Shown piece after piece: positions 27,008-62,911 of a stretch of 64,000 bases of DNA (positions are counted from its first letter, which is position 1; each line of letters starts with the position of its first letter). Made by a program: the position numbers and the translations under genes. The notes beneath the pieces were generated by a model. That model ran no database searches. It was not told where the DNA came from and saw only the letters and a list, made by a program, of their open reading frames with translations. Location of the stretch: positions 16,028,355-16,092,354 of the forward strand of contig NC_049985.1 of the NCBI RefSeq assembly GCF_000003815.2. The letters run 5' to 3'. The DNA comes from Branchiostoma floridae (Eukaryota; Chordata; Leptocardii; Amphioxiformes; Branchiostomatidae).

Positions 27008-39101
<12,094 letters not shown>

Positions 39102-39609
39102 ATTGTACCGCAATGCGTCATGGGAAAGGTCAATGAACTTGTGCAAGTCCAGCTGAGTGATCCTGGATGGTAGGTGTTCATGATATCTGTCTCAAATCCA
39201 TATTCAGATGTCGTTTAGAAGTGTATACACGTGTTTCATAGGACAGTAGATACAAAGGCACGTTGTTAAGATGCAAGATTCGACTTTTGATACCCCGACA
39301 GTCGACTAGCTAGAAAATCTACTAGTTTGTCAGCCCTCCCCCCTCCCCACGTGTGTTCATCTCATTCGAATATCATTTGCAGTGAATGTGACATTGCAGA
39401 AAGTTCAGTATCCTGTACTACATTGTAACAGTCTAACTGGAAACAATGTTGGATACCCAAGCTCAAGCATACCGGATTTCAAAGACACAGAAATAAGTAC
39501 ATGTCATTTTCAAATTTTCATCCCAATAGATATTAGCATAATGTTAAATATCATAAGATTTTATTATCAACATCATGTTAGATTATTTTGTAAATGGCAG
39601 TTTCATTCC

Positions 39610-40717: not shown

Positions 40718-41698
40718 ATGTTCTACAGCAGCACTCAGAGGAAATTCTGGACGTTCAGCAGTGAAGATGAGCTAAGGAAACTGAGATGCCAGGCCAACCA
40801 AGACATCCGACAGAAACATGAAGCCAGCGGCAAGGACTGTAGCAAGCTCTTAACTCCTGACGAAGAGCTGATGGTCTGTCAGTATTATCACAACAGACTG
40901 AGGGAATTCTGTGTGAAGTTTCAGCCCCCCATGCCTAAGTCTGTCATGGCTAGTGCTAGTTCTTACTTCAAGCGGGTCTACCTTCAGAACTCGGTCATGG
41001 AGCATCACCCTAAGATAATAATGCTAACCTGCGTGTACATGGCCTGTAAGGTTGAGGAGTTTAATGTCTCCATTATGCAGTTTGTGGGAAACATTCGCGC
41101 CCGGTCGGAGGAGCGAGAGAGGGCCGTGGATATCATCCTGAATAACGAGTTACAGCTCCTACAGCTCCTGAACTTTCACCTTACCGTGCACAATCCCATC
41201 AGGCCGCTGGAGGGCCTCCTCATTGACATGAAGACCAGGCACCGTTCGGCGGAGGAGGTGGAAACTCTGCGCCGCTGGGCCGAGGAGTATCTCGACAAGT
41301 CGTTCTTGTCGGACGCTTGCCTCCTGTTCCCGCCTTCGCAGGTGGCGCTGGCTGCACTGTGGCATTCTGGGAACACTGTCGGGATGGATGTGCTGTCGTA
41401 CGTCCACCACTGTCTGGGCAAGAACGGTGACGGCGCCGACCAAACTCTGCTGATGAACCAAATCAAAAAGGTGCAAGAAGTAGTGGGGAATGTTCCACAG
41501 CTAGACGCAAGCCTTGTGGAGGAAGCGAAAGCTAAACTAGCTGCTGTGGGTAGCCTTGAGGTAACGCACGACAGCCAGGGCACAAAAAGGAAACAGGGTA
41601 CAGAACAGCAGGGAAAACAAGCAGGGAAAAAGAAGGCTAAACAGGCCAAGTCAGCACAAGAGGATGGAGGACTACTGAGTCTGTCATCTCTGGAGTAG
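40718..41698 (+). CDS. CCNH: Cyclin H
   Basis: Regulatory subunit of the CDK-activating kinase (CDK7-cyclin H-MAT1), which also works in TFIIH. The ATG at 40718 (MFYSSTQRKFWTFSSEDEL) aligns with the vertebrate N-terminus, so upstream non-ATG starts are not used. 326 residues against 323 in human. The first cyclin box includes MPKSVMASASSYFKRVYLQN and IIMLTCVYMACKVEEFNVS; the second includes LLFPPSQVALAAL. HPRIIMLTC-type and FNFHL/VHNP-type landmarks are present. The C-terminal tail is Lys/Gln-rich and diverged. The whole CDS is a single exon, whereas vertebrate CCNH is multi-exon; a 5' UTR acceptor at 40676 (CTACAG) suggests a spliced leader exon upstream. The cyclin frame is intact. Confidence 0.96.
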   Translation: MFYSSTQRKFWTFSSEDELRKLRCQANQDIRQKHEASGKDCSKLLTPDEELMVCQYYHNRLREFCVKFQPPMPKSVMASASSYFKRVYLQNSVMEHHPKIIMLTCVYMACKVEEFNVSIMQFVGNIRARSEERERAVDIILNNELQLLQLLNFHLTVHNPIRPLEGLLIDMKTRHRSAEEVETLRRWAEEYLDKSFLSDACLLFPPSQVALAALWHSGNTVGMDVLSYVHHCLGKNGDGADQTLLMNQIKKVQEVVGNVPQLDASLVEEAKAKLAAVGSLEVTHDSQGTKRKQGTEQQGKQAGKKKAKQAKSAQEDGGLLSLSSLE

Positions 41699-44320: not shown

Positions 44321-44626
44321 CAGTAGAAGCCAATTAATTGCACGGATTAATTGAACGAATTACTGCACACTTCTGTTAATTGCACTGAATCCCAAACCGG
44401 TGCAGTCCAGCTGGATAACTTGCACGAAAAACGCTGGCAAAAGGGGTTTGCAATTTAACAGCTTCTAATGCAATTTGAACCAGCGGCTCAACTTTCAGGC
44501 TGCTACCAGTTTAGCTACAGGGACATCCCTCCCTGTCAAAACTAAACAGAACAAAGACACCAATGTAACAAAACTTAGTGTTAATACCTTGAACACTCAT
44601 CCCTTGTCTTCGTGATGCTCCTATGT

Positions 44627-47600
44627 TCAATATCTCACTGAAAAAAAAAGAGGAAATGCTTAAATGGCAACTTGTCATGATTATGACTTACTTAAAGTTT
44701 GTGTTATCAGTTTTTAAAACACGCTTGAAGGATATCTTTTATAATATTGTTTCAAAGTCTACTTGATATCATTTGGACAGGCCTAGAAATCTAAAAGGAC
44801 AATAAGAAATATCCATTATAACATTTAAACAATAGAGGTGCTCATTATGACACATACTTCATAGATGACCAGAATTCATTTAGAAATGTGTCATGGCTAG
44901 TGTGGTGCGCTACCATTATGGGTACCTTTTCTGGGCCACAAGGCCCATGGGGGTTTAGCACATAATGGAATTTCTTACAGGAGAGACCAAGCCAATGACA
45001 TTATATAACTACAGCTATGGATTATACAACAGCTATGGGTAAGATAGATGGAACGTGACAGCCAAAACTCCATGAATAACCTTGGGGCCCAGAAAAGATG
45101 GCCCATCCCACTAGTGTAGCCCAGATTTTCTGGAATGCCTTGATAGAATTGTGAGCTCACAAGTGTCTGGGAATTGCGGTGTTACCTTGGCAGATGAACA
45201 TCTGCATGAACCCACAGTTAGCAGCTGTCCATTTATTCAGGCGGTCGGTATACCTTGCAACGCCCTTGTAATACTCAACACAATCCTTGGAGTCGCTGTT
45301 GCGTGAACGTGGGTTCCAGGTACTGAAGTCGCCTTCACGCAGAGGACTCCCATCACTCCACTCGTACACTCCCTCCTGAACATGATCCGTCAGCCCAATA
45401 CGGACATAAGTGTTCATACCTGCCACTTTGTTCTTGAGTGTGACCAGGAACTGGTTAGTGGCACTGTCTCGTGGTGTGGCCAGGATGGCCCCATCCTTCT
45501 TACATTCCAACACAGACTCTTCATGGCTCTTTTGGTATGTGAACACTTTGTAGCAGTTAGCTTCAAACAATTTGTAACCTTGAGGACAAGCGCCTGCAAC
45601 AGTGGTAGGGGAGGTTGTCTTGTGAGCCGTGGTTGCCATGGTGGTTGTTGTGGCAACAGGAGTGGTTGTCATGGGAGCTGTGGTTGCCATGGTAGTTGTT
45701 GTGGCAACAGGAGTGGTTGTCATGGGAGCTGTGGTTGCCATGGTAGTTGTTGTAGCAACAGGAGTGGTTGTGATAGGAGTTGTGGTTGCCATGGTGGTTG
45801 TTGTGGCAACAGGAGTTGTTGTCATGGGAACTGTGGTTGTCACGTTGGTTGTTGTAGCAACAGGAGTGGTTGTCATGGGAGCTGTGGTTGCCACGGTGGT
45901 TGTTGTGGCAACAGGAGTGGTTGTCATGGGAGCTGTGGTTGCCATGGTAGTTGTTGTAGCAACAGGAGTGGTTGTCATGGGAGTTGTGGTTACCATGGTG
46001 GTGGTTGTGGCAACAGGAGTGGTTGTCATGGGAGCTGTGGTTGCCATAGTGGTTGTTGTGGCAACAGGAGTGGTTGTCATGGGAGCTGTGGTTGCCATGG
46101 TGGTGGTTGTGGCAACAGGAGTGGTTGTCATGGGAGCTGTAGTTGTCATGGTAGTTGTGGCAACAGGAGTGGTTGTCATGGGAGCTGTGGTTGCCATGGT
46201 AGTTGTTGTGGCAACAGAAGTGGTTGTCATGGGAGTTGTGGTTTCCATGGGAGTTGTTGTGGTAACAGGAGTGGTTGTCATGGGAGTTGTGGTTTCCATG
46301 GGAGTTGTTGTGGTAACAGGAGTGGTTGTCATGGGAGCTGTGGTTGCAATGGCGGTTGTTGTGATTGTGGAGGTTGTCACAGTTGTTGTGGTGATAACAG
46401 TTGTGGTTGCCATGTTAGAAGTGGTTGCTTCAGTGGTAGTGGCAGCCATCTTAGTGGTAGTGGGAGTCATGGCCGATGTGGTTTCTTTGGCAGGAGCACT
46501 CATAGTAGAGGTGCCTGTCATGATGTGTGTAGCTGTCAGGGTGGACAAATACAAATGCAAATGCCTTATTATTTGGCAGTGTTATTCCCCACCTACCAAT
46601 AGGTAAGCACAATGTGGGGGTTATATTCCCATGGTATGCAAAGCAATGAATAGCTAGCAAGTAGTGTACAATATTTTAAAACCCATTTCTATTTGGATAA
46701 GGTTGTTTGTTATCCCACAAGTAGCACTGAAATACGTTACGTTGGTCCTGTCCTTGGTGCTGAAATACATTACAATAACATCACAGTGCCGGCTGTGCTT
46801 GTTTTGAAACCTAGCACCAGACATACTTGGGAAAGTAAAATACCTGTTGCTGTGGTTCTCATTTGCATGATGCCCCGTCCTGAGATACAAAGCGAGCTAG
46901 CCTGTACAGCCGGTGTGTTGTTTTGGTGGTTTTCTGTCAGGGCCTGAAAAAAACACTCGACATTGTTGAAATATAATCGAGTTTCAATAACTTATTTTCT
47001 ATGGAATGTGGTAGAAAGAATTTCCAACTTCATATTTTGGTAACTGCAAGTTCTCCGTAAAATCTGTTGGTCAAGCGGTCAACAGCGATGTAGCAATTAT
47101 TTTCTTACATCTATTGTCTGCTCAATAAACAATCCATTCATTCATTCAAGTACAAGAGAATATAGAAGAGAGGCCTGGGTCACAGGGGTGCATAGACCAA
47201 AATGGACGGTAGGAGGTACGTCGTTCAAAACAAATCACCCAATGTGTGAAAACAATTAGTAGAACCTTCATTTCGCTGCGCAGTGTTCACTAGTGGATAC
47301 CAAAGAAGTAGGCTACTCTTGATTCCTATCCCTCCTGACTCATCCTTAGCCTATTCTATAGGTGTTTTTGTTTTGTTTGGCGTTTTCCAACTGTTTTCTA
47401 ATTGCTCTGCTTTTTTACATGGTCACTTGGTCAAAATTCTCTGTGCCACCAAGAAGTTCATGGGTTGAAGTTACGATTTAGTTTGACCGCAAAAGAACAT
47501 GCAAGAAAATTGTGCATGTCAACCAAGAAAAGAAGAAGACTAGCCCATTCCTATAGGTAAATAAAATATAGATAGTTTACGTTGTAGGGAGAGCCGTTCA

Positions 47601-50305
47601 GGCACAAGGCGAGTAGGACTCCGATTATGACCACGGTTGTCATGGCGACGCACAGAACGACACAGTAGAACACTCGGGACCGCACGATCACGTGACAGGT
47701 CTTCCTCCAATCGCTCCCTCCCTCGGCGCCGTCGTTCTCCTTGGTACCGGTAAGGGGCTCTAGACAGATAACACCATCCGAAAATAGTTTCATCTGATCC
47801 GGTTGGTAGAATATAGGATATATGAGAATTCTTTTTGCACAACCAACAGGTACTTACATTGCTTACGTTTCGATGTCTCTCAGACACCTTCGTCAGAGCT
47901 TCTAACTGCAGTTTTGCTTCTCACCGCTATATGTAACCGATATAGGTGGTCCTTTTTCGGTGAGAAAACAATCTCCTATAGATAACACCATAACACTAGT
48001 TCTACACAGTTCAAGACATCGGTAAACGCAAAAGCTCAAATAAGCTATGTTTCGTTGACGGTGATCGTTAAGTGATCAAAACTGGAAATTGTGTGACCAT
48101 TGAAATAATGAATTTCATGATTGCAAAGGAATGACTGCAAGATGTAAAAGCATGATTCAGAAGACAACAATAAACATAAAACGTCAAAGAATTCGTTCTT
48201 TATCTATGAAATTCGTTCAGCGATCTGTGAAATCTCTGGTCATTCAGTACGTGGTCGTTCAGCGATTATAGGTTCTAGAGGAAAGTTAACACCAGGAAAA
48301 ATACCCAAGGATCAGAAATTTAAAGCGCCAACAAAACTTAAGAAACTTGATTGCACTTAAACAACAGACATATCCTGACTAATAATAATTGCTTAATTCT
48401 TTTGATACAGTTCATCTTTATCAACATACATATGTATCTTATGTGTACATTCTTCTTTTAAGCATTCATTACCGTTGCAAGTTCTATTCAACGTACCAAC
48501 TATTGTCACGTCATATGCACTTGATGTGTATACTTCATTTTGAAATATCACATGCCAAGCCAGGAGAAATATAGCTGAGTATGAGTCTTAATCTACTCTA
48601 CGAAAAAATATGTAAATTTCGCACGCTTATTAGGGCCTTAACACTGAAATCGAATTAGCATGAATCAAGCAGAACCAGCCGGAATGAAGTATTTGCAAAA
48701 TCCGTTCCACATTCGGGGCCAATCGGGTTATAATTTCTACACACGACATTGGATTACGCCGTCTGATGACGTCAGCATTTCCCGAAGTGCACCAGGATCC
48801 GGAAAGACTTCAAAAAGCAAAAGCTATGGCGATTCTGAATTGATTTTTTTGTTTTCAATTGTAGCCTACATTGGTTTCCTCTATATCATTGTGCACAATG
48901 TGCAATTTGGAGACATTTTTTTAAGATTGACATAATCATAATGCCTTCAGCACAAGTAATAGAGCACATGGCTACAAACTGTAAGTTGATTGTCTACAGG
49001 ATCAATCATAGTTTGTAACATTACTACAGCCCAGGATGAGCGTTAAATGCACAAGGCCACAAAGGATCACAAAATTATATACTCCCAACATTACCACAAT
49101 ACATGTAGTACCTTGTCAACAGTGTGCCATGATGTAATGTGCTATGCCGTTGTGTCCATGTTTGATGTGTGTGGATATCAGGATGTTTCCTCACCGTTAC
49201 TGCCACAGCAAGATTCTTCATCTTCTTCAACAGAGATTCGGCTTGACGCCTTCTTTTCTGCGTTCGGGTCCTCATGAGGGGTGCCTTCCTGCTTGTCATT
49301 GCTCCCGTCACCTTCTGTAGGCTGAGGATGTTTGGAGTCGTCATCTGTGGCGCTCTTTGTCCCATCTGCAAGCTCGGATTCGTCCTCTTTTACGCCAGGG
49401 TCTTTTGTGGAGATGCCTTTCTCCTTAGTCTCGCTCCCTTCATCTTCATTTGACTGGGAATGTTTTAGGTGATCGTTTTCGCTCTTTCCCCCTTCTGCGA
49501 GTTCGGAGTCCCCATCACGAATGAAGCCGCTGTCGGCTGATTTGACGCTCCCACTGTCCAACGATCCTTGCTTGAGTAGATTCATGTGATACATAGGTAT
49601 ATCATCGCAGTCTAGGTTCGCTTCCTCGCGGATGGGCCCTTCAACGGCGTGTAGGCTACCATTCTCGGTTGAAGGAGCATCTAAATCTTCTTCAAGTTCT
49701 TGTTGATTGGGCACGGCAGGGTGTTCTTTTTCGTTGCCCTCTGCATGCTGGTTGTCGCGGCCGAGAATTGAGCCATCCGGAGGCCAGACGATATCTGTTT
49801 GTGTTTCCTTGTCGAGTTGGGGGGTACTTGTGCGGTTAGCTTCTCCGTTGTTACCGTCTGCAGGTAGGTCTTCCTTGGGTTGGGCTGTTTGCCCGGCCGC
49901 ATGGTTTTTACTCTCTGGGGGTTCGTCCGATTCCTTTTTTGACCCTCCCTGTTTCCCTCTGGAAAATTCTTGATGCGGACCGTCGGTGGTGTCGTTTTTG
50001 TCGTCACAATTTTCCATGTCAAATTCACCATTTTTGTCAAGTTCACCAGAGCCTGGTTCGTCCGGCTGACCCGCATGTTTGGAGCGTTCTACACTTGCCC
50101 TGTCCTCGGTGCTGGGTGGGTGATCTACCCGCTGCGCTGCCGATGGAAACGCGTGGTATATATCATCTACCCGGTGCCTCTCACGGGTCCCATTTTGGGA
50201 CTCATAACACCCGGCGCTGTCCTCTTCTGTAGACCTCACCACGTCTTCAAACTCATCGTCTGTGATGATAGGACAGGCACGGAACTCCATAGCGAAGAAG
50301 TCCAT
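44627..50305 (-). CDS. Type II membrane mucin-like C-type lectin, gene 1
   Basis: Exons 5' to 3': 50305-49195, 47759-47581, 46943-46844, 46532-45186, 44637-44627 (TGA; this exon runs on to 44588). Phases join without a stop (915 residues). Layout: acidic, hydrophilic cytoplasmic region of about 370 residues with YHAF and YHMN tyrosine motifs; one membrane segment (VFYCVVLCVAMTTVVIIGVL) preceded by basic residues, hence type II; a short linker exon; a Thr-rich stalk of about 300 residues with 17-residue repeats and dense potential O-glycosylation; and a C-terminal C-type lectin domain (CPQGYKLFEANCYKVF to MFICQVRY) with six Cys. The usual calcium motifs EPN/QPD and WND are absent (NKWTAANC), so calcium-dependent sugar binding is doubtful. 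ATG choice between 50305 and 50290 is open; the paralogue favours the MEF start at 50290. Function unknown. Confidence 0.85.
45186..45602 (-). other. C-type lectin domain of gene 1
   Basis: CTLD landmarks in order: CYKVF, ILATPRD, YVRIGLTD (WIGL-type strand), YEWSDGSPL, KDCVEYY, NKWTAANC, MFICQ. Six Cys give the usual disulfide pairs. Residues at the calcium-site positions are not canonical. Confidence 0.9.
45629..46345 (-). repeat. 51-bp coding minisatellite (mucin stalk of gene 1)
   Basis: About 13 tandem units of 51 bp encode TTTPVATTTTMATTAPM with small changes; some units are shortened by a codon or diverged. The opposite strand has long open frames through the array (VVVMGAVVAMVVVVATG), which are by-products of the repeat. 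Confidence 0.93.
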
Positions 50306-52390
50306 GATGTTGGACGAACAGAACCGGTGCCAGCGCAGCACCGACCCGTTATGAGAGCTCACACGTTCCGACCGCCTCTCTTAGCATGCTGATTGTCTGT
50401 ATGACGCAGAGGTCGTTTGTTCTTTGATAGCTATGTGGGCGTTAAGTATATGTTTAATCTTATAAGTTAAAGCTTAAGAAGACATAAGAAAAGGGCACTT
50501 GCTAGAACAGTCTTAGACTAATCATTGGAAACGAACGGTTGCGCAACAAGGCATGCACAGGCAGCCAGCGAAGCTCTATGACCTTTTAGGAACAACTTAT
50601 CCATATTTCAAACTCTCTACACTACTACACTCATTATTTATACAATTTACACATCCCTGCCAAGTACAGGAAATTCTGTCTGTCTACCAGGTTCTCACAA
50701 AATAGCCATCAATGTCTACTAAACTTAATCTAAAAATACAAGAACCATATAGTAGTGTAGTATATCTTCTTTGCTTTAGAAAAACAGCAAATAATACATG
50801 GTGAGCTTGACTAAAAGCTCACCATGCTTGATTTGATCAAAGGTATTGAAGGTTGTTGTATAGAGGAGCCTACGCGTACTGTCCGTATAGACTTAGCTCG
50901 ACGTGAAACCTTTTAAGGGATTCGCCTGTGATTTTAACACTTTAAGTATGTTAGTCTTATCTATATGTCACATGTCAACCTTTTATCCTTGTAATTCAGC
51001 TCTTGGGCTGCCGAATTTTCTGTGAATAAAACCAGTTATTTTGTAGCGGGCCGTACACTTACTAAATAGTAAAATGACCCACTTAAATAATATGTATGCG
51101 CAAGGTAGCAGCTACTAAACAACTGTAAAATATTTGGAAACGGTCAGACGTTTCATACAGCAAACGCTATCTTTCGTCAGTGACTACTCAACAAGTATGC
51201 TTATGTAGATGTAATTCTCGGCGTCTTCGCGTGTGCTCTGAAGTTAGGAGTCTTTGCTCTGAAAGAAAACCCTTTGTCGGTTCTGATTTGTCTGCCTCCC
51301 ACACAGTTTCTGGTAACTTTGTTTTGTAAACACAGAGTAGCTAAAGACAGGTTTTAAAGCTCTAGGAACCTGATGCTGTCTGTTTACATACAGACAGTGG
51401 CTACATGGCCTTTCTCACCGTGAAGCCAGTAGGCACCCTTGCGAGTTATGAGGCTGTACTTTAGTTACACTTTGAAAATGAAATGTGTACCAAAACTTTA
51501 TCCAAGCCTTGAGATATTTCTGTAAATGTACATCTTTGAACGTATGGGCTATTAAATTATAGTTACCATGTTGAGTCTGCCCAGGTTGTTTACGTTTATT
51601 GGGGTTTTGATATTTAATTTGGTTCCTGTTTTCTAGTTTGTAGTTGACTTTATATGTAGTTTACCGTCGTTCTTGTTTCGTGTATAAAACTTTTTCATAT
51701 ATGTTTCTTCTTCTTATCTTCTTCTTCTTACATTCTCGTCACCAAGGGTACCTTCTGGTTGAGAGTTTGACAGTTTTGTCTGTATGCACATGCTCTCTTC
51801 ATGTGGAAAGATTGGAGAACGCCCTGGTCACTGTAAGAGAAAATATGTATTATCAATGCCTATAGTACCTAGGTACAAATCTCAATATGAAAGCTGCCAC
51901 ATATGATACATGTCCATTCGATATTTTAGACGATGAATTGTTTTTATTTTTTACGCTGCACTTATTGTTTGCCATGCGGGGGTAAGATAGCCTGGGTACC
52001 ATCCGATTTCTACCGGGGCTCCTTACACTCGCTTCCCTAAACAAGTGCTTTTAAAAAAAGCTGGCGTTTCGTCTACGTTTATGAGTGTGAACTGTCTTTT
52101 TCTTGAAGTAAAATCTGTTAGAAAAAGTCACTCAAGGGCTGTTGCGTCTATAAGAAAAATTGTTATTTTGGAAAGGAGTACTGTTTAATAGCTGGTCTTG
52201 GCTTACAACTTTATTTTAAATGTACAATAAGTTCATTATAAAATCTATCAATATACTCAGGTACTTATGTACACTTGAAAAAGCACCATCAGCACTGTGA
52301 CAAGATTCTATCTAAATTGACTACCAAATGTCAAACAAATATCCAAACCAATTAACAGCTACCTCATCTCTATTATACTGGTTTCCGCAT
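50306..52390. other. Region upstream of lectin gene 1
   Basis: No gene supported. It holds an inverted fragment of the GTCTGACCGTTT repeat at 51130-51190, a TCTTCT microsatellite near 51707-51735, and a repeat end at 51985-52040 (GGTACCATCCGATTTCTACC, GGGAAGCGAGTGTAAGGAGC on the other strand) that recurs inverted at 57680-57735. The promoter of gene 1 should lie at its left edge; none was recognised. Confidence 0.5.
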
Positions 52391-52539
52391 TTACAACATT
52401 TCTTCCTTGTTTTCCTGGATAATTTTGCTAATATTCATGAAAATTTCCATACTTTTGTGTCGAGCGGTGTGGCTTTCCACATCCGTGTTGTCTGAAAACT
52501 TCTGAATGAAGTCGATACTGAACAATGAAGCATTTGCTA
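52391..52539 (-). CDS. Candidate terminal coding exon (possibly of lectin gene 2)
   Basis: Acceptor TTTCTTACAG| at 52540 opens a phase-1 exon of 48 codons ending in TAA (VANASLFSIDFIQKF ... KIIQENKEEML). The phase matches the donor of the lectin exon at 58631, which needs a phase-1 acceptor. The C-terminal half looks helical and charged. It is 6 kb away across a repeat-filled interval, so it could belong to another gene. The peptide was not recognised. Confidence 0.35.
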
Positions 52540-55500
52540 CTGTAAGAAAGGATCGCTGTTTTTGATGGAGTTTCATGCAAACAACATCAAGAGCCTCTGT
52601 TTACATCATGAATAGTAGTTTAGTGGCGAGTGTTTTGCGAGAATCATCTTACCGCGCATAGGAGCCGCTGCACGGTATTTCCATTACCATGAACAGAAAA
52701 ATTCGAATGCCGGGTTTGGAATCTATGAAGTCCTGTTCATAAGACAAAGGCCTTGCATATATAAAATGAATACTAGAATAAATAAAAAATGATATATACA
52801 AGTATAATATCAATAAATGAATAGAATATTTATATATTATCTTCAATATTTAAAAAGAAAAAATCCACTCTCGGTTTCGATCCAGGGACTTTCGGATCTG
52901 AAGGAGATTTGAGCTTTACGTGTATTACATGTGAGTGTACATTATGCTTTAACCTCACTACATAGTATTTATGTCGATTTTCGGTCGCTTTCTTGATAAA
53001 ATCATTGTTTTTCTTGTGCAATCTTGTGGAATAGATGTTATATGCAAGTATACCGAAGTCACGGGTTCCGCACTGGGCGCCCAGTGCGGAATTCGTGGAG
53101 AAACTGGCGTCGGCACTCGGGGCCCAGTACGAAAGAATCTTCCGCACAGGATTTCCAGTGCGGAACGGCTTTGTTCGAGTGCTGAAGACCCGTCAGCGCT
53201 GGAATTCCAGAGCTACACCTTGTCTCGGCACTCGTTTTCCAGTGCCGAACTCCGTCCAGCACTCGGTTTCTAGTGCCGAACTCCGCCCAGCACTCGGTTT
53301 CTAGTGCTGATCTCCGCTCAGCACTCGGTTTCTAGTGCGGAAGGGTGGTTCAAAGGTTGTTCAGCACTTGTTACCCAGTGCGGAGGTCTTTGAGCACTGG
53401 ATAACCGAGTGCCGATCTACCTAAGTCACGGGTTCCGCACTGGGATTTCTAGTGCTCGGTGACTTTTCGGCACTAGAAGCCGAGTGCTAAGACCACTTCG
53501 GCACTAGAAGCCGAGTGCTACTATCATTTTAAGACCGTTAGCACTGGGTTTCCAGTGCTCGCGTCCAAATCGTTACTCAAACACATAGTTGACATGCAGC
53601 AGCGCCTACTAACCTTCGGACGGTCACTTACTCAGTATTTTAAATCAATTTTGCCCTAGTCTTGTCTCTGTCGGAACTCGAAACAGCATGTGTGTATCAT
53701 ACGCTACATCCTACATGTATATAGTGTTATGTATATGATGACCTCATGTCAACAGTATCCTATTTGTCCTGAATTAGTCCTCGGCCCCTCCGTTATGAAG
53801 TGATGCGGAAATCGTCTGGAGCCTAAAGTCACCTATGCGCTGAGACGACCGCATTAAGCGGGCGTCCAAAAACCGCGCAAAGCAGAAAACTTGTCGAGGG
53901 CTGGGCGGGTGGGTCGCTTCAGGCTCCAGACGTAGCCGGAGGGCCACAGGAGGACTGACAGTTTGACATCTCTTAGTATTGTGGGGTCAAAGGGCAATTT
54001 CGGGACCAATGACTAATCAGGTTAAATAGTATCCTATTTGTCCTGAATTAGTCCTCGGCCCCTCCGTTATGAAGTGATGCGGAAATCGTCTTCCGCCTTT
54101 GCCCTCTCTGACTTTGGAGCCTTTCCTCTCCTGTCCCCTAATACCTCCCTACAAAGATACTTCCTTAAGGTACCTTCTCGCTCCTTTCCTCTCCCTGTCT
54201 ACTCTTTCAAATCACTCCCTGTCTTTATCCCTCTCTCATCTTCCCATCCTTATCTTCGCTCTATCACCTTTCCTCTCCCCTTACTCATATGATTCCTTTC
54301 TTACTCCTCTCGACTTGTCCCCCTCACTCATCTTGCTCTTCTTTGAACTTTTATCACTAACGTTACATAAACCACACATTCCTAAGTATTCACACTCGTT
54401 TTCCCAACACTGATCATACCCACTCCAAATTTACACAGCGATTCAAACATGAAGGAAAAACAGACATAACTGAACCGTGCTCTGTACTGCATCTGGTAAG
54501 TCATCACTGTGCGACACAAAAATCATTTATACGCAGACGCACATCAGGCTGCTCACTTCTGTCCTCACAGCCCGTTTCCCGCGCACACCCTTTAGCCAGG
54601 CCTCAGTCCGGCGACGATACTCACGCACTTCCGCCTAGCAAATCATCCAGCCTCCCGCGGAAACCCATCGCACTGGATTTAGTTACAAAATGTCATGGAA
54701 GAACGTACATGACTTCCCGAATCATTCAGCCTTCCGCGGAACCCCTTCGCGCTGAATGATGTCACAGCAAATCACGAAAGAAAATAAACGAGCACAATTT
54801 CTCGGATCGTCCAGCCTTCCGCGGAAACCCTTCGCGCTGGATAACGTCACACCATGCTGAAAATACGACTGCACACTTCTCGGGTCATTCAGCTTACTGC
54901 GGAACCCCGTCGCACTGAATGATATCTTGCTGTGCTATAAAAAAGGCGTCAAACCAAAGACGTTCTTGGTCAGACCAATCTCAAAACAGGGTTACTCGAT
55001 TAGTTCCTAACCATCCAGCATCCCGCGGCACCCCATCGCACTGGAAAACGACATGTCAAAATCCATCAAGAAAAATAGGGGAAAAAATGACTTACAGTCC
55101 GTTCCTTGAGCTGTCGGCGGGGTTAGCTGAACTGACCGGCAGGGGCTGGGCGGTGTCGGGGACCGGAGCGCCAGTCGACCCTGATCCTCTGACCGCTGTC
55201 CCTTGTAGCACTGTGCCCTGAAGCCGCCTCCTCAGGTTCCCTGGTATTTATTATCTCACAACTTTATTCAGTACAAAGAAAACATGGTTCACAACATAAA
55301 ACATCACAGCCTAACAGGTTCCCTGGCGCGTCTTGACCCCTCTCTGCTGCTAAAGCTTGTGCAGGCCACCAACGGGTCCTATCGGGCCGCACATCTGGCG
55401 AGGTTGATGATGGCGTGTCCCGGAGCTGGGTGGTGGTGTGTCCCTCGCATCCCTGTTGTTGGAGGGGGAGAGCGTCAGACCTGTATGAACAACACGTGAA

Positions 55501-58500
55501 CCATGAGATAGTGGGGAGGGACGGGCGCCCGGCAACAGGTCCGGTCCCAGACAGACAAGTCTAAAACAAACGCATCCTCCACACCGCCCAGCCCCCCCAC
55601 ATGCGAGCGAGCCGCGTTACGTGGCGTAAGGCTGGGTCACGCGCGCCCACAACATCCAAACGCGCCTTACAGATACACACTCATACACATGCAAATCAAA
55701 CTCCAAACTAATGCAAAATATTAGCGGAAACCCCATACACAGCCTCGACGTTCAATCTAGGAAAGCAAAAGAAAATTCTACCTTGCCAAAACAGAAATGA
55801 CACCCAAATCGTACCGACTGCAGCCTTCGAAGCTCAGAGGGGTTGGCTGAACGCTACGACAAGCTCTCTCAGCGGGGTGACGTCTGATCCTGAAAACAAA
55901 GAACCAGGAGGGGGGGGGGGTCGCCATCTTGCCTCCTGGAACATGCCATCGTCGTTCTCTGTTCCTGCCTGAAATATTCACGAAAATCAAAAAATGACAT
56001 CAAAATCTGGAAACTCTCGTTCTGCTCCACACCTCAGCAATAAAAGCCAGCACCCACAGCTTTCCTTCGCGGAGGATCACTATGGATACAAAAACATAAC
56101 CAGGACAAAAGAAATTCGAGAGAACCACCATCTGCCATGTGGGCACCAACTATCTGCTTGGAGTAGCTGTCGGACCCTGCTAAAACATTCACAAAGGCAC
56201 GAAAACACACAAGAATCAATCAGCTTCACGCAAAACAAAACGCCAGCCTGAACGAAAAAAAGGCGTCCTAAACTCGTCCCGGCCTAAGAAGGAAGAAAGG
56301 CTTGAAACTGTAACGAAAATGGCGTAAAGCAGTCACCCCTGCACTCCGGAACATTCCTCCCTCAAAAATCAAGTATTCATATGCAAAAACAACAGACAAC
56401 GCAAGGATTAAATGATATAGCTGGCAGCCGGAATTCCAAGCCGTGCTAGAAAGGAAACACAAACAGCGAGAACCATAATCAGTAAAGGCCGCTCCGAACC
56501 TCTAACGAAGCACACACAGGAGTAAAGAGACGAGAGAAACACACGAAAAAGTACCAACCGACCGCGGAACCAAATCAAACCTTCCGTGGAAAGAACGTGT
56601 CCTCCCGAGGGTAATCAAAACGTGACCGCCAAGGCCTCGAGCCGTAGCGTGCTTCCCTGCGGCGTCGAAAAACCAACATCACCGCTGGGCAGGTTTTCTG
56701 CTTTGCGTGGTGAGCAGAAGTGGAGGGGTCCGTCGTAGACGAGGACCACAGGAGGACTGACAGTTTGACATCTCTTAGTATTGTGGGGTCAAAGGGCAAC
56801 TTTCGGGACCAATGACTAATCAGGTTAAATAGTGTGTCAGCTTCGTTCCCTTTTTCTAAATTTCACGAAGATGAAATGCCAATAAATTGCAGCTCCCTTT
56901 GTCGTGTTTGAGTTGCAGACTACTTTCAATCAATCGTTCGCATGCATCATTTGTTGATTCGTGGCGGCTACAGACAGTTTAGACAGTTCTACTTTGGTCA
57001 CGAAAAAAAATGTCTAAATAAGAAAAAAAATTGATATGTACTGTTCTTTGAAAACCCGACACGGATATTTCCTCCCATACGCAGCTTTCTCAGGCTAAAG
57101 GTGAACGTTTTGTTACACTTCTTTTATGTATTACATTTGTATATGTGTACCTTTAACTGCCCGGAACTGTAAATAACGTAACGGAGGCAGGCTGTCAGCA
57201 CTCACGGTTTCAAGTGCGGAATATTTGTCGTCACTGGTTTTCCTGTGCGGAATATTTGTCGTCACTCGTTTTCTAGTGCGGATGGTAGTCTCAGCACTCG
57301 GTTTCTAGTGGTGAATCGGGGGTTTTCAGTGCTGAAGTCGACTCACCACTGGACACCTAGTGCGGACGTAACGTCGGCACTAGACTTCTAGTGCGGAAGG
57401 CCCCTTCCGCACTAGACACCGAGTGCTGAGAGAGGAACCCGTGACTTCGGTAGTTTTGCATGTTATCGCAACATTTTCCAGGATATTGAAGTCCGAAACC
57501 ACAATGCAATGGTATTTCCGAACATACAGTTGTAGCAGTTGCATGCGGTCGTGTTGAACTCTTGAGCCAAACCAAGCACCAAGCATCCATCCATGCATCG
57601 AAGGAAGCACCCACTGAAGGTAAAACCCAATACATTGCGTTTCGTCGCCAGAGGGCGACGAAACGCAAAAAAGTATTTTTTAGGGAAGCGAGTGTAAGGA
57701 GCCTCGGTAGAAATCGGATGGTACCCAGGCTAGGGGTAAGAGACAGAGACAGCAACCTAGTTCTCTAGGTAACTTACATGCGTTGTTAAAAAACCAGAAT
57801 ATTTAAGAATATTAAGTCGACGGGAATGGTTTCAAACTGAAACACTTTAAAAATACTGCAGCTTGAAAACACTGTTCGTCAACTTGATAGCCCTAAATAC
57901 CATGCATGTTTTAAAAACAACGGATATAGGTTACGCCACGGATAAAGGTGAACTAGCTTTAAATGTGAGACAGGTATAGAATTTTTCATAAACAAACAAA
58001 TAAACAAACTAATTTATCGTCATTACATTCTTACGGTTCACTCACTCACAAAACACATTAGGAATCTATCTCATAGCTAATGCATAATCCATGTAAAACC
58101 CACCATACCCAAAATCCACGTTTTCCCGTCATCTACCCCGCCTGGTCCAATCTACGTCTCCACACGGCTTTTGACTGCATGACAGAAGATGGGGGGAAAA
58201 CAAGCGACAAGTTAAACCTTTTCAGCACTTCAAGTCGGAACTCAACAAGTCATATAAAAAAACAGTTATAAAATGAGCCAATATATCCCTCTTATTGCAA
58301 AACATATATCAGGCAATGGATAACCATGTCGTAAAATGGTAAAGTCAATTCAAATCTATAACTGTGCGCGGATCGAAAGAAGCTTACTCTATACATTTTA
58401 GTCTTACATGAAACACTGGTGGTGACATTCTGTTTTTGGTACCTTTAGACAGATTAGCCGTGAGGCTCCGTGGGCGTCACTCCACCGTCATGGGGGCAGG

Positions 58501-61500
58501 GGCATGGCGAGTATCGAACTCTGGACCTACTGATTCTGATTCCAACGCTCTACCCGTTGCGCCACACAGACAGTAGTTGCCAAAATGTACACGTTTAGTT
58601 TAAACAAGACACAAGGAACTCTGATCTTACCTTGGCAGATGAACATCTGATTCCAATCACAGCTAGTAATCTGCCACTTATTTGGCTGAATGGCGAGAGA
58701 GTGAATGTTATAATCTGCTCTGACGTACTCCACACAGTTCTTCAAGCCATTGTTGCGTAAACGCCTCGTCCAGGGGCTGTAGTCGCCCTTGCGCAGAGGA
58801 CTGCCATCACTCCACACGAGCACTCCCTCCTGAGCACGGTCCGTCAGGCCGATACGGACGTACTCGCTTCCCGTCGCCCTGTTCTTTAGCCCGATCAGGA
58901 ACTGGTCCGTGGTGCGGTCACGAGGTGTGGCAAGGATGCCACCGTCTTTGCTGCATGTCTCCACGGACCCCTCGTACCTCAGGGTCTCCTCAAACACTTT
59001 GTAACAGTTTTCTTGGAACAATTCGTAACATGGAGGGCATGGGCCTTCAGTGGTTGTCATGACAGCCGTCGGTGTCATGGTAACAGAGGGGGGCGCCATG
59101 GTCGTTGTCGGTGCTGCATTTGTAGTTGTACAAGGAGAAGTCACCTTAGTTGTTGTCGGTGCTGTAGCTGTAGATGTAGAAGGAGAAGTCGCCATTGTTG
59201 TCGTGGGTGCTGTAGTTGTAGTTGTAGTTGTAGCTGTAGAAGGGGACGTCGCTATGGTAGATGTCAACGTTGTAGTTGTAGAAGGGGAAGTCGCCAAGGA
59301 AGTCGTCGGTGCTGTAGTTGTAGTTGTAGAAGGAGAAGTCGCCATAGAAGTCGTCGGTGACGTAGTTGTAGGTGTAGTTGTAGTTGTAGAAGGGGAAGTC
59401 GCCATGGTAGATGTAAGCGTTGTGGGTTTAGTTGTAGAAGGGGAAGTCGCCAAGGAAGTCGTCGGTGCTGTAGTTGTATTGGCAGAATTAGAAGTCGCCA
59501 TGATAGTCGCCGGTGCTGTAGTTGTAGTTGTAGAAGGAGAAGTCACCATGGTTGTCGTCGGTGATGAAGCTGTAGTTGTAGTTGTAGTTGTAAAAGAAGA
59601 AGTCGTCGTGGTAGTCGTCGGTGCTGTAGTTGTAGTTGTAGAAGGGGAAGTATGCAAGAAAGTCGTCGGTGCTGTAGTTGTAGCTCCAGAAGGAGAAGTT
59701 GCCATGGTTGTCGTCGGTGCTGTAGTTGTAGTTGTAGAAGGAGAAGTCACAATGGTAGATGTCAGCGTTGTAGTTGTAGTGGTAGAAGGGGAAGTATCCA
59801 TGGCTGTCGTCGGTGCTGTAGTTGTAGTTGTAGTTGTAGTTGTAGAATGAGAAGTCACCGGGGTAGTCGCCTGTGCTGAAGTTATAGAAGGGGAAGTCGC
59901 CATGGTAGTCGTCGGTGCTGTAGTTGTAGTGGTAGAAGTAAAAGTCGCCATGGCAGTCGCCTGTGCTGTAGTTGTGGCTGTAGACAGATAAGTTACCATG
60001 GTAGTCGTCGATGCTGTAGCTGTAGAAGGAGAAGTCGCCTTGGTAGTTGTCGGTAATGTAGTTGTAGTTGTAGATGGGAAAATATCCATGAAAGTCGTCG
60101 GCGCCGTAGTTGTAGTTGCAGAAGGAGTAGCCGCCGTGGTAGATGTCAGCGTTGTAGTTGTAGTTGTAGTTGTAGAAGGAGAAGTCGCAATGGTAGTTGA
60201 CGGTTCTGTAGTTGTAGTTGTAAAAGGGGAAGTATGCAAGAAAGTCGTCGGTGCTGTAGTTGTAGTTCTAGAAGGAGAAGTTGCCATGGTGGTCGTCGGT
60301 GCTGTAGTTGTAGTAGTAGGAGGAAAAGTCGCAATGGTAGTTGACGGTTCTGTAGTTGTAGTTGTAAAAGAGGAAGTGTGCAAGAAAGTCGTCGGTGCTG
60401 TATTTGTAGTTCCAAAAGGAGAAGTTGCCATGGTTGTCGTCGGTGCTGTGGTTGTAGTTGTAGTTGTAGAAGAAGAGGTCGCCATAGAAGTCGTCGGTGC
60501 TGTAGTTGTAGAAGGAGAAGTCACTATGGCAGTCGTCGGTGCTGTAGTTGTAGAAGGAGAAGTCACTATCGCCGTCGACGGTACTGTAGTTGTATTTGTA
60601 GAAATAGAAGTCGTCGGTGATGTAGTTGCAGTTGTAGAAGGGGAAGTCGCTATGGTTGTTGTCACTGCTGTAGTTATAGAAGGGGAAGGATAAGTCGCTA
60701 TGGTAGTTGTCGGTGATGTAGTTGAAGTGGTAGTTGTAAAAGAAGAAGTCGCCATAGAAGTCGTCGGTGCTGTAGCTGTAGCTATAGAACGGAGGGTTGC
60801 CATGCTAGTCGTCGGTGATGTAGATGTAGTTGTACCGCGATATTTCTTCATAATTACTGTGGTTGCCATTGTGGAAGTGGATGTTGGCGTAGGAGGAATG
60901 GGCTTGGTCGTTGCAGTCGTCATTGTAGAAGTGGTTCCTTTTGTCGCCGTAGCTTGGTGAGAGCCGTTATGGCGAGAGTCATTGTAGTGTGAGTCACTAT
61001 GGTGAGAGCCGGTCTGGTGTGAGCCACTTTGGTGAGAGCCGGTATGGTGAGAGCCGGTATGGTGAGAGCCATTGTGGTGTGAGCCGTTATGGTGAGCACT
61101 GGTATGGTGAGAGCCGGTCTGGTGTGAGCCACCTTGGTGAGAGCCGGTATGGTGTGAGCCACTTTGGTGAGAGCCGGTATGGTGAGAGCCGCTATGGTGA
61201 GAGTCGATCAGACACATGGCCAGCAGGACTCCCGCTGCAACTACGGTTGCTATGACGATACACAAAATAATGCTGCAGAACACTGGCGCTGGGAAACGAG
61301 ACTCTGCTTGACAGGTGCTCTTACTGTCCTCTTCAGAATGGGGATCTAGATATGAAAATATATATGCAAGAATAGGTCGACTCAGAACTTTGCTGGTGAT
61401 ATCACGTATAAACAGGAAAATATCTTTTTTAAATTCTGTAACCTTCATGGGCACAGGGAATAAATGGAGAAAGTAAGTTTATAACTAGTACAATTATAAT

Positions 61501-62911
61501 CAGCACTATTACTTACATTCCTCTTTCTTTATGGAAAGGTATCACTTTACAAGGTTTAATAAGCTATCCGTTTGTAGAAACAGCAGCATTGCAACTTATG
61601 TATGAAAGGTATACACGCTGTAATATTTCATGTTTCTAAAACTGTGTCCTCCTTAGGCTTTGTTGATTTTATTATATGGATGACATCCTCTGGAAACAAC
61701 CCCAAAACTGAGGCGAGCGTGTGAATGAAAAAGTCTGTACACAAAAGAAGTTGACTTCATTCTGAAATTTGAGGAAGGTTCAACATATGACTGAGCACTC
61801 AGGGAATGATACATCCTCCTACGCACGGTCCCAACGGCTGACTGCCCATATAAGGGTAAGCTCATTAATATCCCAACGGCTGACTGCCCATATAAGGGTA
61901 AGCTCATTAATATTTATAAGCAGGGCGGCGAGTTTGTGGCGACAATCATAATACCTGGGTGTAGGGCCTGGGATAGCAGGGCCCAATAGGCTGAGCAGTC
62001 AGCTAGCCGTTGGGACCGTGCGTAGGAGGATGGGAATGATACGGAACAACAGATTCTTCGTTTTTGTTCTTTCGCATTTTCGCATTTTCTGTCATTTGTT
62101 TGCAATCTACAGCATATGTTTGCTAATTTTGCAGTCACTTTTACAGTACGATTTACAATATGGTTGAAACCTTTTTTTAACGACAGAAAATTACTTCACC
62201 CAGGGATGTCATCCATATAATCAAATCAATATTTTCCTTACCGATATTTCCGCCAGACTGTTTATTTTCCAGAGGTGAAATTCGGTATGTGGCCTTTTTC
62301 TTCCATGTTGAAGTCTTCAGTCGTGCAGACGGCATCTCCTGTGATAAGATGTTGTTTGTAGTCGTCGTCTGGGTCGCTCTTTTATCCAACATCTTGCTCT
62401 GGCCGTCCAACTTAGATCGAGCCACAAACGGGTGATCCTCCCGGCGACTATTTCGTGAAAAAATGGAGCTAACGCTTTGTAGCGGCAGCTTGTTCTCACA
62501 GTCTAGTTTTGCCGGCTCGCGGATTGGACCTTGAGTGGTGGTATCTTGGTCTTTTTTTGAGGATGACGGAGGATGTTTGATTTGGTGATCGGGCCAGGTC
62601 GGGGTATCATTCACGGCGTCAAAATCGCCATCCTTGCGTTCTCGAGTATTTGACATACCTTTTGTCTTCTCCGCATGGTTTTGGCGTTTCACGCTCACTC
62701 CGACACCGTTACTAGCACGGTGGCTTGTTGTCACGGCCCCCCGCTCTGTAGTCATTTCACATGTACAGTCGTCCAAGTCGCTATCCCCTACCTTTTGGGA
62801 CTTGTAGCGACAATCATAGCCGCTGTATATTTTCCCACCTATTGGGGACATGTTTCCGTACTCATCGTCCACGGCGTAAGAAGAAACGCGGAGATTCTCA
62901 GCAAATTCCAT
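52391..62911 (-). CDS. Type II membrane mucin-like C-type lectin, gene 2 (terminal exon tentative)
   Basis: Paralogue of gene 1. Exons: 62911-62242 (cytoplasmic, starts MEFAENL), 61345-58631 (TM, stalk, lectin), and tentatively 52539-52391. The first two are well supported; all phases fit (1177 residues). The cytoplasmic part shares GPIRE.A.LDC with gene 1 and has a YGNM motif (YxN, Grb2-type SH2 ligand). TM: VFCSIILCIVIATVVAAGVL, preceded by basic residues. Directly outside is a His-Gly-Ser array of about 18 pentapeptides, then roughly 640 residues rich in Thr, Ser, Pro and Ala (TTTTAPTTTMATSPS-like), then a CTLD (CYELFQENCYKVF to MFICQ) without EPN/QPD or WND. TM, stalk and lectin share one exon here but are split into three in gene 1. 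Function unknown; perhaps epithelial or immune surface protection. Confidence 0.82.
53040..53570. repeat. Palindromic GCACT...AGTGC repeat array, copy 1
   Basis: Starts ACCGAAGTCACGGGTTCCGC and holds more than a dozen GCACT/AGTGC word pairs; three consecutive units of about 31 bp carry CAGCACTCGGTTTCTAGTGC. Units are themselves near-palindromes. The same terminus and words occur inverted at 57185-57450. Confidence 0.85.
53754..54028. mobile_element. Short TIR element (275 bp) sharing both ends with the next element
   Basis: Left CCTATTTGTCCTGAATTAGTC and right (reverse complement) ACTATTTAACCTGATTAGTC are imperfect inverted repeats. The first about 65 bp are repeated at 54027-54092 and the last about 85 bp at 56748-56832. 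Confidence 0.8.
54027..56832. mobile_element. Long element (about 2.8 kb) with the same ends, no intact transposase seen
   Basis: Bounded by copies of the same left and right ends as 53754-54028. It contains a pyrimidine-rich stretch (54092-54350), five hairpin repeats (54640-55050), GC-rich DNA with minus-strand TTATT-type signals near 55250, and further CCGCGGAA/CCTTCCG words near 56565-56590. The ORFs present are short and unrecognised. Probably a non-autonomous DNA transposon or a composite. Confidence 0.65.
54640..55050 (+). repeat. Five hairpin repeats with compensated stems
   Basis: Copies at about 54643-54678, 54721-54760, 54809-54842, 54885-54922 and 55014-55045. The core is CTTCCGCGGAACCCCTTCGC-like, flanked by inverted arms. 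Arms alternate TTCAG/CTGAA and TCCAG/CTGGA with pairing kept. The second copy has a perfect 10-bp stem (ATCATTCAGC/GCTGAATGAT). Confidence 0.85.
57185..57450. repeat. Palindromic GCACT...AGTGC repeat array, copy 2 (inverted)
   Basis: Contains CAGCACTCGGTTTCTAGTG and GGCACTAGACTTCTAGTGC and ends GAACCCGTGACTTCGGTAG, the reverse complement of the left end of 53040-53570. Confidence 0.8.
57451..58470. other. Stretch between repeats and lectin exon
   Basis: No gene supported. It holds an inverted copy (57680-57735) of the repeat end seen at 51985-52040, a GTCTG-family-like fragment near 57840-57960, and AAACAAA runs near 57990-58010. It would lie inside the last intron of lectin gene 2 if the 52391 exon belongs to it. 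Confidence 0.5.
58480..58575 (-). mobile_element. tRNA-derived SINE head, minus strand
   Basis: On the minus strand GTGGCGCAACGGGTAGAGCG (A box) is followed by CAGAGTTCGATACTCGCC (B box). The acceptor-stem halves do not pair convincingly, so a SINE is preferred over a tRNA gene. It lies in the open frame beyond the lectin exon donor. Confidence 0.65.
58631..59040 (-). other. C-type lectin domain of gene 2
   Basis: Landmarks: CYELF, CYKVF, ILATPRD, YVRIGLTD, VWSDGSPL, NCVEY, NKWQITSC, MFICQ. About half of the residues match gene 1. No EPN/QPD or WND. The exon ends in the same place and phase as in gene 1. Confidence 0.9.
59045..60950 (-). repeat. Coding Thr/Ser/Ala/Pro repeat (mucin stalk of gene 2)
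   Basis: Imperfect 45-60-bp units, in coding sense built on ATG GCN ACT TCN CCT TCT ACN ACN with runs of ACA/ACT. They are more diverged than the array in gene 1. Long Val-rich frames on the opposite strand are artefacts of the repeat. Confidence 0.9.
60951..61213 (-). repeat. 15-bp coding minisatellite: His-rich pentapeptide array
   Basis: About 17-18 tandem 15-bp units (plus-strand form GAGCCGGTATGGTGA) encode GSHHT, GSHQS, GSHHN and variants, giving over 25 His in about 88 residues right after the membrane segment. Multiples of 15 bp keep the frame. Confidence 0.93.
61813..62031. mobile_element. MITE with 11-bp target duplication (Mutator-like), in intron 1 of lectin gene 2
   Basis: GGGAATGATAC is found at 61802-61812 and 62032-62042. 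The ends ATCCTCCTACGCACGGTCCC and GGGACCGTGCGTAGGAGGAT are perfect inverted repeats, extending through CAACGG. A 42-bp internal unit (CCCAACGGCTGACTGCCCAT...) is duplicated in tandem at 61830-61913. Confidence 0.92.

Follow-up and report, generated by a model that had tools for sequence, protein, structure and literature searches.

Two Adjacent Branchiostoma floridae Genes Predicted to Encode Mucin-Stalked Type II Membrane Proteins with C-Type Lectin-Like Domains Lacking Calcium-Site Motifs

Introduction

What kind of protein is encoded by two neighbouring minus-strand genes of the lancelet Branchiostoma floridae, both of which place a C-type lectin-like domain (CTLD) at the end of a long Thr-rich stalk, and by which means could such a protein bind and signal? 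The two genes, here called A and B, lie in a stretch of 64,000 nucleotides (assembly GCF_000003815.2, contig NC_049985.1, positions 16,028,355 to 16,092,354 of the forward strand; G+C 41.6%), which is referred to as the window. A sequence-only reading of the locus had taken them for a tandem pair of surface lectins that lack calcium motifs and signal through tyrosine motifs. The present analysis leads us to hold, with moderate confidence, that A and B are paralogous type II mucin-stalked receptors with a calcium-independent CTLD and a cytoplasmic tail acting via short motifs other than tyrosine motifs.

Gene Models and Paralogy

The models of both genes were predicted from the sequence by joining exons via GT-AG introns, and all limits are given as window positions. 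Gene A consists of five exons at 50305-44627 on the minus strand, encoding a protein of 915 residues with the C-terminus MFICQVRY; its third exon is included because the frame would otherwise be lost. Gene B, at 62911-58152 on the minus strand, has two main exons and a candidate last exon, and encodes 1128 residues up to MFICQ.

Gene A:
49195-50305, minus: exon 1, a 370-residue cytoplasmic N-terminal region plus 1 nt; donor phase 1 (ACG|GTGAGG)
49607-49639, minus: cytoplasmic motif GPIREEANLDC, residues 223-233
49223-49258, minus: exon-end motif EKKASSRISVEE, residues 350-361
47581-47759, minus: exon 2, juxtamembrane and transmembrane (TM) region with a hydropathy peak at residues 404-422; homologous to the TM region of B
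46844-46943, minus: exon 3, a 100-nt linker exon, phase 0 in and phase 1 out
45186-46532, minus: exon 4 as a whole, stalk and CTLD; donor phase 1
45595-46532, minus: Thr-rich stalk in exon 4, 316 residues including the end of exon 3, 52.5% Thr; 51-bp tandem unit TTTPVATTTTMATTAPM
45187-45594, minus: CTLD, 136 residues, six Cys, C-terminal MFICQ; PF00059 at 6.6e-17
44627-44637, minus: coding part of the last exon, VRY and stop; acceptor TTTTTTTTTCAG

Gene B:
62242-62911, minus: exon 1, a 223-residue cytoplasmic N-terminal region plus 1 nt; donor phase 1 (ATCG|GTAAGG)
62498-62530, minus: cytoplasmic motif GPIREPAKLDC, residues 128-138
62267-62302, minus: exon-end motif KKKATYRISPLE, residues 204-215
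58631-61345, minus: exon 2 as a whole, with TM segment, His-rich block, Thr stalk, and CTLD in a single exon
61206-61345, minus: start of exon 2, juxtamembrane and TM region with a hydropathy peak at residues 249-267
60954-61205, minus: His/Ser/Gly block, residues 271-354 (84 residues), 31% His, 25% Ser, 16.7% Gly; 15-bp tandem unit
59046-60953, minus: Thr/Ser-rich stalk, 636 residues, 47.8% Thr, 14% Ser, 10.2% Pro
58632-59045, minus: CTLD, 138 residues, seven Cys including those of CPPC, C-terminal MFICQ; PF00059 at 1.3e-14
58152-58174, minus: candidate last exon, VKSRVET and stop; acceptor TTCTGTCATGCAG, with a fitting phase 1

The two genes share one domain order, namely a cytoplasmic exon, a single TM segment, a Thr-rich mucin-like stalk, and a C-terminal CTLD. 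Their phases also agree: in both genes, exon 1 has a phase 1 donor and its successor begins in phase 1, and the exon that encodes the CTLD likewise closes in phase 1, following MFICQ. The CTLDs of A and B are 54.7% identical (E = 5e-47), the TM regions are 45% identical over 40 residues (E = 2e-7), and the DNA around the two start codons is 83% identical over 30 nt (E 0.013). A further 30-nt match within exon 1 (A 49358-49329, B 62382-62353) was set aside, because the codon registers differ by hand arithmetic. With the cyclin gene nearby as the sole training set for the codon score, exon 1 scores best in the proposed frame among the six (A, 0.19 versus at most 0.02; B, 0.07 versus at most -0.21). 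No additional CTLD copy was detected in the window by tblastn, the next matches having E values of at least 2.1. Collectively, the comparison supports the assignment of the two predicted genes as diverged tandem paralogues.

The two-gene arrangement described in the sequence-only reading was thus recovered by the GT-AG models, the PF00059 matches, and the matching phases, and the sequences that it had named (GPIRE.A.LDC, MFICQ, YHMN, and YGNM) are all present. Its type II topology (as a prediction), mucin-like stalk, and tandem paralogy are likewise supported by the charges flanking the TM segment, the stalk composition, and the CTLD similarity. The genes share the order of parts that it describes but differ in intron pattern: A has two introns between the TM segment and the CTLD whereas B has none, and the tails are alike only in short anchors. 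The low end of the pair had been set at 44588, where a donor site may lie past the stop codon of A; in the present model, the coding sequence of A ends at 44627.

The Lectin Domain and Its Calcium Site

Both lectin domains match the PF00059 profile far above its gathering score of 22.6, with 62.6 bits for A and 55.3 bits for B. The cysteines of the A domain are at positions 3, 14, 31, 105, 127, and 135, and the six aligned cysteines are also found in B, which has Cys 6 in addition; we take these six common residues to be the disulphide set of a long-form CTLD, with the pairing assumed likewise. The core motif WIGL reads RIGL in both domains. The domain of B begins with GPCPPC (59028-59045, minus strand), in which the extra cysteine is possibly unpaired and could form an inter-chain disulphide.

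Calcium and sugar binding by CTLDs involves the sites known as EPN or QPD together with WND (PMC7618208). Inspection of the sequences and their alignment showed that EPN, QPD, and WND are all absent from the calcium-site positions of the two CTLDs, as had been noticed from the sequence. The loop at the EPN/QPD position reads WNPRSRNSDSKDC in A and WTRRLRNNGLKNC in B, and the WND position reads KWTA in A and KWQI in B. This position was located by reference to the W before it and the C after it and by the expected spacing. The letters QPN do occur in B, but in IQPNKW adjoining the WND position and outside the EPN loop.

Evolutionary rates show that the domain is under purifying selection. By the Nei-Gojobori method, the nonsynonymous rate dN is 0.32 and the synonymous rate dS is 0.99 (dN/dS about 0.33), and no other part of the two proteins is conserved as well as the CTLD. 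Among the PDB sequence matches listed (the best 60 of 99 and the best 60 of 66 distinct sequences, E up to 0.001), the best are multi-CTLD proteins (PLA2R and LY75), followed by DC-SIGN, with NKG2D lower and with mannose receptors and mincle also present. As these matches are scattered over several groups, no single vertebrate group stands out.

Membrane Topology and Stalks

The strongest hydrophobic segment comprises residues 404-422 in A and 249-267 in B. In both proteins, Lys and Arg occur within the 20 residues before this segment and are missing from the 20 residues after it, and hydropathy analysis showed no hydrophobic signal at either N-terminus. The flanking charges and the non-hydrophobic N-terminus lead to the prediction of a type II orientation. 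By eye, neither TM segment contains a charged residue.

Thr, Ser, and Pro together make up 64.8% of the stalk in A and 72.0% in B. The stalk accounts for 316 of the 915 residues of A and for 636 of the 1128 residues of B, or 720 when the His block is counted. A long Ser/Thr/Pro-rich tandem-repeat ectodomain, which is a feature of membrane mucins, is present in both proteins. In A, the array at 45613-46363 of the window repeats a 51-bp unit 14.8 times with 91% matches, a homogeneity that makes length polymorphism between individuals likely; the repeat of B is more diverged, with a period of 96 and 69% matches. Codon changes among the 10 regular 17-residue units of the A array, out of 12 intervals, gave a ratio of synonymous to nonsynonymous changes of 12:13 in the Thr frame, whereas the two alternative frames of that strand gave 5:18 and 3:21; the Thr frame thus looks to be the constrained one, the numbers being small. 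No EGF repeats were found in the scanned CTLD and cytoplasmic parts, and the stalk appears by eye to be nearly devoid of cysteine.

A His/Ser/Gly block sits directly outside the membrane in B, whereas A has no such block. It could possibly serve metal or pH sensing, or be merely a repeat expansion. The long stalk, this histidine-rich juxtamembrane block of B, and the long tail are the features that distinguish the pair.

Cytoplasmic Tails

A Pfam profile scan of the exon 1 products of both A and B returned no match. The clearest resemblance between the tails is the pair GPIREEANLDC (A) and GPIREPAKLDC (B), identical at 9 of 11 positions; none of 200 shuffles of B reached 9, the maximum being 7. 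The GPIRE stretch alone gave tblastn E values of 0.07 and 0.035 in the window. At the end of exon 1, EKKASSRISVEE of A and KKKATYRISPLE of B are identical at 7 of 12 positions, and 11 of 500 shuffles reached 6 or more when the last 33 residues of B were shuffled against the last 40 of A. The alignment of the whole tails was dropped as proof of tail homology, owing to shuffles that scored as high, and the motif anchors were used instead. The predicted tails are very divergent, and their relationship shows in order and anchors instead of in the sequence as a whole.

Tyrosines are located at residues 34, 50, and 239 of the A tail and at residues 12, 18, 29, 32, 36, and 209 of the B tail. The global alignment of the tails contains a single tyrosine pair, A50/B29 (IYHAF versus IYSGY), in a short stretch between gaps, and the remaining seven tyrosines face another residue or a gap. 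The tails share no tyrosine motif. Neither contains an immunoreceptor tyrosine-based inhibitory, switch, or activation motif (ITIM, ITSM, or ITAM), a hemITAM, or an NPxY or dileucine pattern. One YxxPhi pattern of the endocytosis type is found in each tail, YHAF in A and YGNM in B, with frequencies in shuffled tails of 33% and 66%, respectively, and YHMN of A matches none of the tyrosine patterns tested. Phosphorylation-type RxxS/T sites (one in A and three in B) are uninformative, being found in 91% and 97% of shuffles. A motif missing from the tail is not in itself proof against signalling; NKG2D likewise lacks one and relies on an adaptor (PMC7618208).

Ahead of the acceptor of the TM exon, each gene has a Met in the same frame, beginning MKLFSDG in A (47760-47820, minus strand) and MKVTEFKK in B (61346-61450, minus strand).

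Proposed Mechanism and Alternative Explanations

In the interpretation that we prefer, A and B would be type II single-pass membrane glycoproteins whose Thr-rich stalk, densely O-glycosylated, would lift the C-terminal CTLD beyond the glycocalyx of the cell itself. The CTLD would have lost the canonical calcium/sugar site and would most likely bind a protein or glycan ligand without calcium, like the group V receptors dectin-1, CLEC-2, and NKG2D. The long tail, probably disordered, would most likely act through the two conserved short motifs, by docking or by Ser/Thr phosphorylation. The proteins could then serve as surface receptors or adhesion glycoproteins, and a role as barrier or pattern receptors, as suggested from the sequence, may be considered. 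A more specific version can be put forward only tentatively: the pair would belong to a family confined to one lineage, whose type II receptors would carry, on a mucin stalk, a CTLD that works without calcium. Such a family would have its own cytoplasmic signalling module (GPIRExAxLDC plus KKAxxRISxxE) without a tyrosine motif; repeat expansion would adjust the reach of the ectodomain, and the His-rich juxtamembrane segment of one member could sense pH or metal.

Several points weigh against the preferred interpretation. Only two such genes were seen in the window, which makes the term family thin, and the models of both are sequence-based predictions. The AlphaFold model of the A domain, built with two sequences, has a mean predicted local distance difference test (pLDDT) score of 39.7 and is unusable for comparison of fold or surface. 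The exon-end motif exceeds chance to no more than a moderate degree and was chosen after the alignment had been seen, and the whole-tail local alignment score of 69 was reached by 9 of 2000 shuffles, which leaves tail homology to short anchors. Moreover, the in-frame Met upstream of the TM exon of both genes makes a short-tailed product without exon 1 possible.

This last point leads to the alternative that exon 1 belongs to a gene separate from that of the TM segment and CTLD, or that the TM exon provides a start of its own, the product then lacking exon 1. The splicing of exon 1 to exon 2, across 1435 nt in A and 896 nt in B, is a prediction, and the upstream Met begins with MK in the open frames of both TM exons; against this stand the same order and phase in two paralogues, the likeness of the start-codon regions, and the exon-end motif common to both. 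The long form with exon 1 is favoured over a short-tail start because the phases and start regions match between A and B, and we regard this alternative, in either form, as very improbable. Equally directed at the tail is the proposal that A and B are immune receptors whose signal depends on phosphorylated tyrosines in YHMN of A and YGNM of B. YxxM and YxN are the sites of p85 and Grb2, respectively; each occurs once, both in YGNM of B, and A50 and B29 lie opposite each other in the global alignment. Yet YxxM and YxN appear in 16% and 27% of shuffled B tails, VDDEYGNM of B lies opposite TDDEFEDV of A so that YGNM faces FEDV, YHMN faces a gap, and the patterns of the ITIM, ITSM, ITAM, and hemITAM types are missing from both tails. 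Pairing with an adaptor through a charged TM residue is a known receptor mechanism, but the uncharged TM segments do not suggest pairing with a tyrosine-bearing adaptor. As neither YHMN nor YGNM is common to both tails, tyrosine signalling was rejected as a conserved feature, and signalling through these two sites, as claimed in the sequence-only reading, appears improbable to us.

The remaining two alternatives concern the ectodomain. If A and B were membrane mucins, the Thr stalk would act in barrier or anti-adhesion function and the CTLD would be a relic or spacer. The long stalk of both proteins and the strong difference in repeat length and sequence between the paralogues are consistent with this, but the CTLD, with its low dN/dS ratio and six cysteines kept, is better conserved than the rest of the two proteins, and we consider the mucin explanation unlikely, if still worth entertaining. 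A conventional calcium-dependent lectin, with unusual ligand residues replacing EPN and WND, has in its favour the N and D residues retained in the A loop WNPRSRNSDSKDC and the rank of DC-SIGN, which is the best single-CTLD match of solved structure (E 5e-14) among the matches listed. The loops of A and B, however, contain none of EPN, QPD, EPD, and QPN, and the N-D of WND is replaced by T-A in A and by Q-I in B, which leaves this explanation with hardly any weight.

Comparison with Known CTLD Groups

The group V receptors of vertebrates are of type II. Like A and B, those of the group (dectin-1, CLEC-2, NKG2D, and LOX-1) carry a single C-terminal CTLD on a TM segment and a long loop without calcium motifs, which is the norm for the group, and they still bind proteins and, in some cases, glycans (PMC7618208). 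A and B combine a type II orientation, as predicted, with a C-terminal CTLD lacking calcium motifs. Dectin-1 and NKG2D have a short stalk and a short intracellular part, with a hemITAM in dectin-1 (PMC7618208), whereas A and B have stalks of 316 and 720 residues, tails of 370 and 223 residues, and no hemITAM or ITIM. Group II receptors (DC-SIGN, MGL, and mincle) also bear the CTLD at the C-terminal end; their necks are of a non-mucin kind. In contrast to A and B, this group uses EPN or QPD with WND (PMC7618208). The proteins of group XIV (thrombomodulin, CD93, CD248, and CLEC14A) resemble A and B in combining a CTLD, a Ser/Thr/Pro-rich mucin-like region, and one TM segment, but they are of type I, with an N-terminal CTLD, EGF repeats between the CTLD and the mucin region, and a short cytotail (PMC9167495). 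In A and B, the CTLD lies C-terminal to the TM segment.

B. floridae has 300 CTLDcp genes (PMC10140915) and is cited as the eukaryote richest in novel domain combinations (PMC12373286); together, these reports lead one to expect a new CTLD arrangement in a lancelet. A B. belcheri gene annotated as the NK antigen CD94 is among the genes induced by poly(I:C) (PMC5752451), which indicates that NK-receptor-like CTLDs have been annotated in lancelets. The lancelet expansion provides a large repertoire, but type II mucin-stalked members are not described in the portions of PMC10140915 and PMC5752451 covered. A protein that unites type II topology with a long mucin stalk, a CTLD free of calcium motifs, and a long tail is not described in the titles and abstract openings of the open-licence literature surveyed, nor in the covered parts of PMC5752451 and PMC7308585. 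The parts are known, as a group V-like CTLD without calcium motifs and as group XIV mucin regions, and their combination is a variant.

Genomic Neighbourhood

Scans of the whole window for tRNA genes and Rfam families gave no matches. By eye, a segment at 58480-58570 (minus strand), just after the CTLD exon of B, resembles a tRNA-derived short interspersed element, for which ARAGORN and Rfam were negative. An inverted pair of 57 nt (51988-52044 and 57676-57732) is 96% complementary, with several further repeat families in between; its copy at 51988-52044 bears some resemblance to lancelet repeats, and the sequence separating the two lectin genes looks like mobile-element material. Intron 1 of B contains a perfect 42-bp duplication at 61829-61913.

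Open reading frames elsewhere in the window also gave domain matches. A cyclin gene at 40718-41698 (plus strand) has Cyclin_C_2 and Cyclin_N in a single uninterrupted open reading frame (ORF) and is cyclin-H-like by eye. Five ORFs were scanned at 3224-20775 (plus strand), three with fibronectin type III domains, one with a protein-tyrosine-phosphatase domain, and one without a match, and this region is probably a receptor-type phosphatase gene. At 35539-39191 (minus strand), the three ORFs scanned comprise one with a histidyl-tRNA synthetase match (27.8 bits, cut-off 25), one with WHEP-TRS below the cut-off (26.0 versus 32.5), and one without a match.

Conclusions

The pair is plausible as a variant, if a fairly ordinary one, within a receptor superfamily that is very large and evolves fast, and to which it would add one architecture; as that superfamily is already very diverse, the surprise to a specialist should be modest. 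Among vertebrates, the CTLD proteins known to us to bear a mucin-like region belong to group XIV and have the opposite topology. If expressed as predicted, A and B would represent a receptor design that joins a group V-like, calcium-free lectin head to a long mucin stalk, and they could provide a test case both for stalk length setting the ligands within reach of a CTLD and for how a tail that lacks tyrosine motifs might signal.

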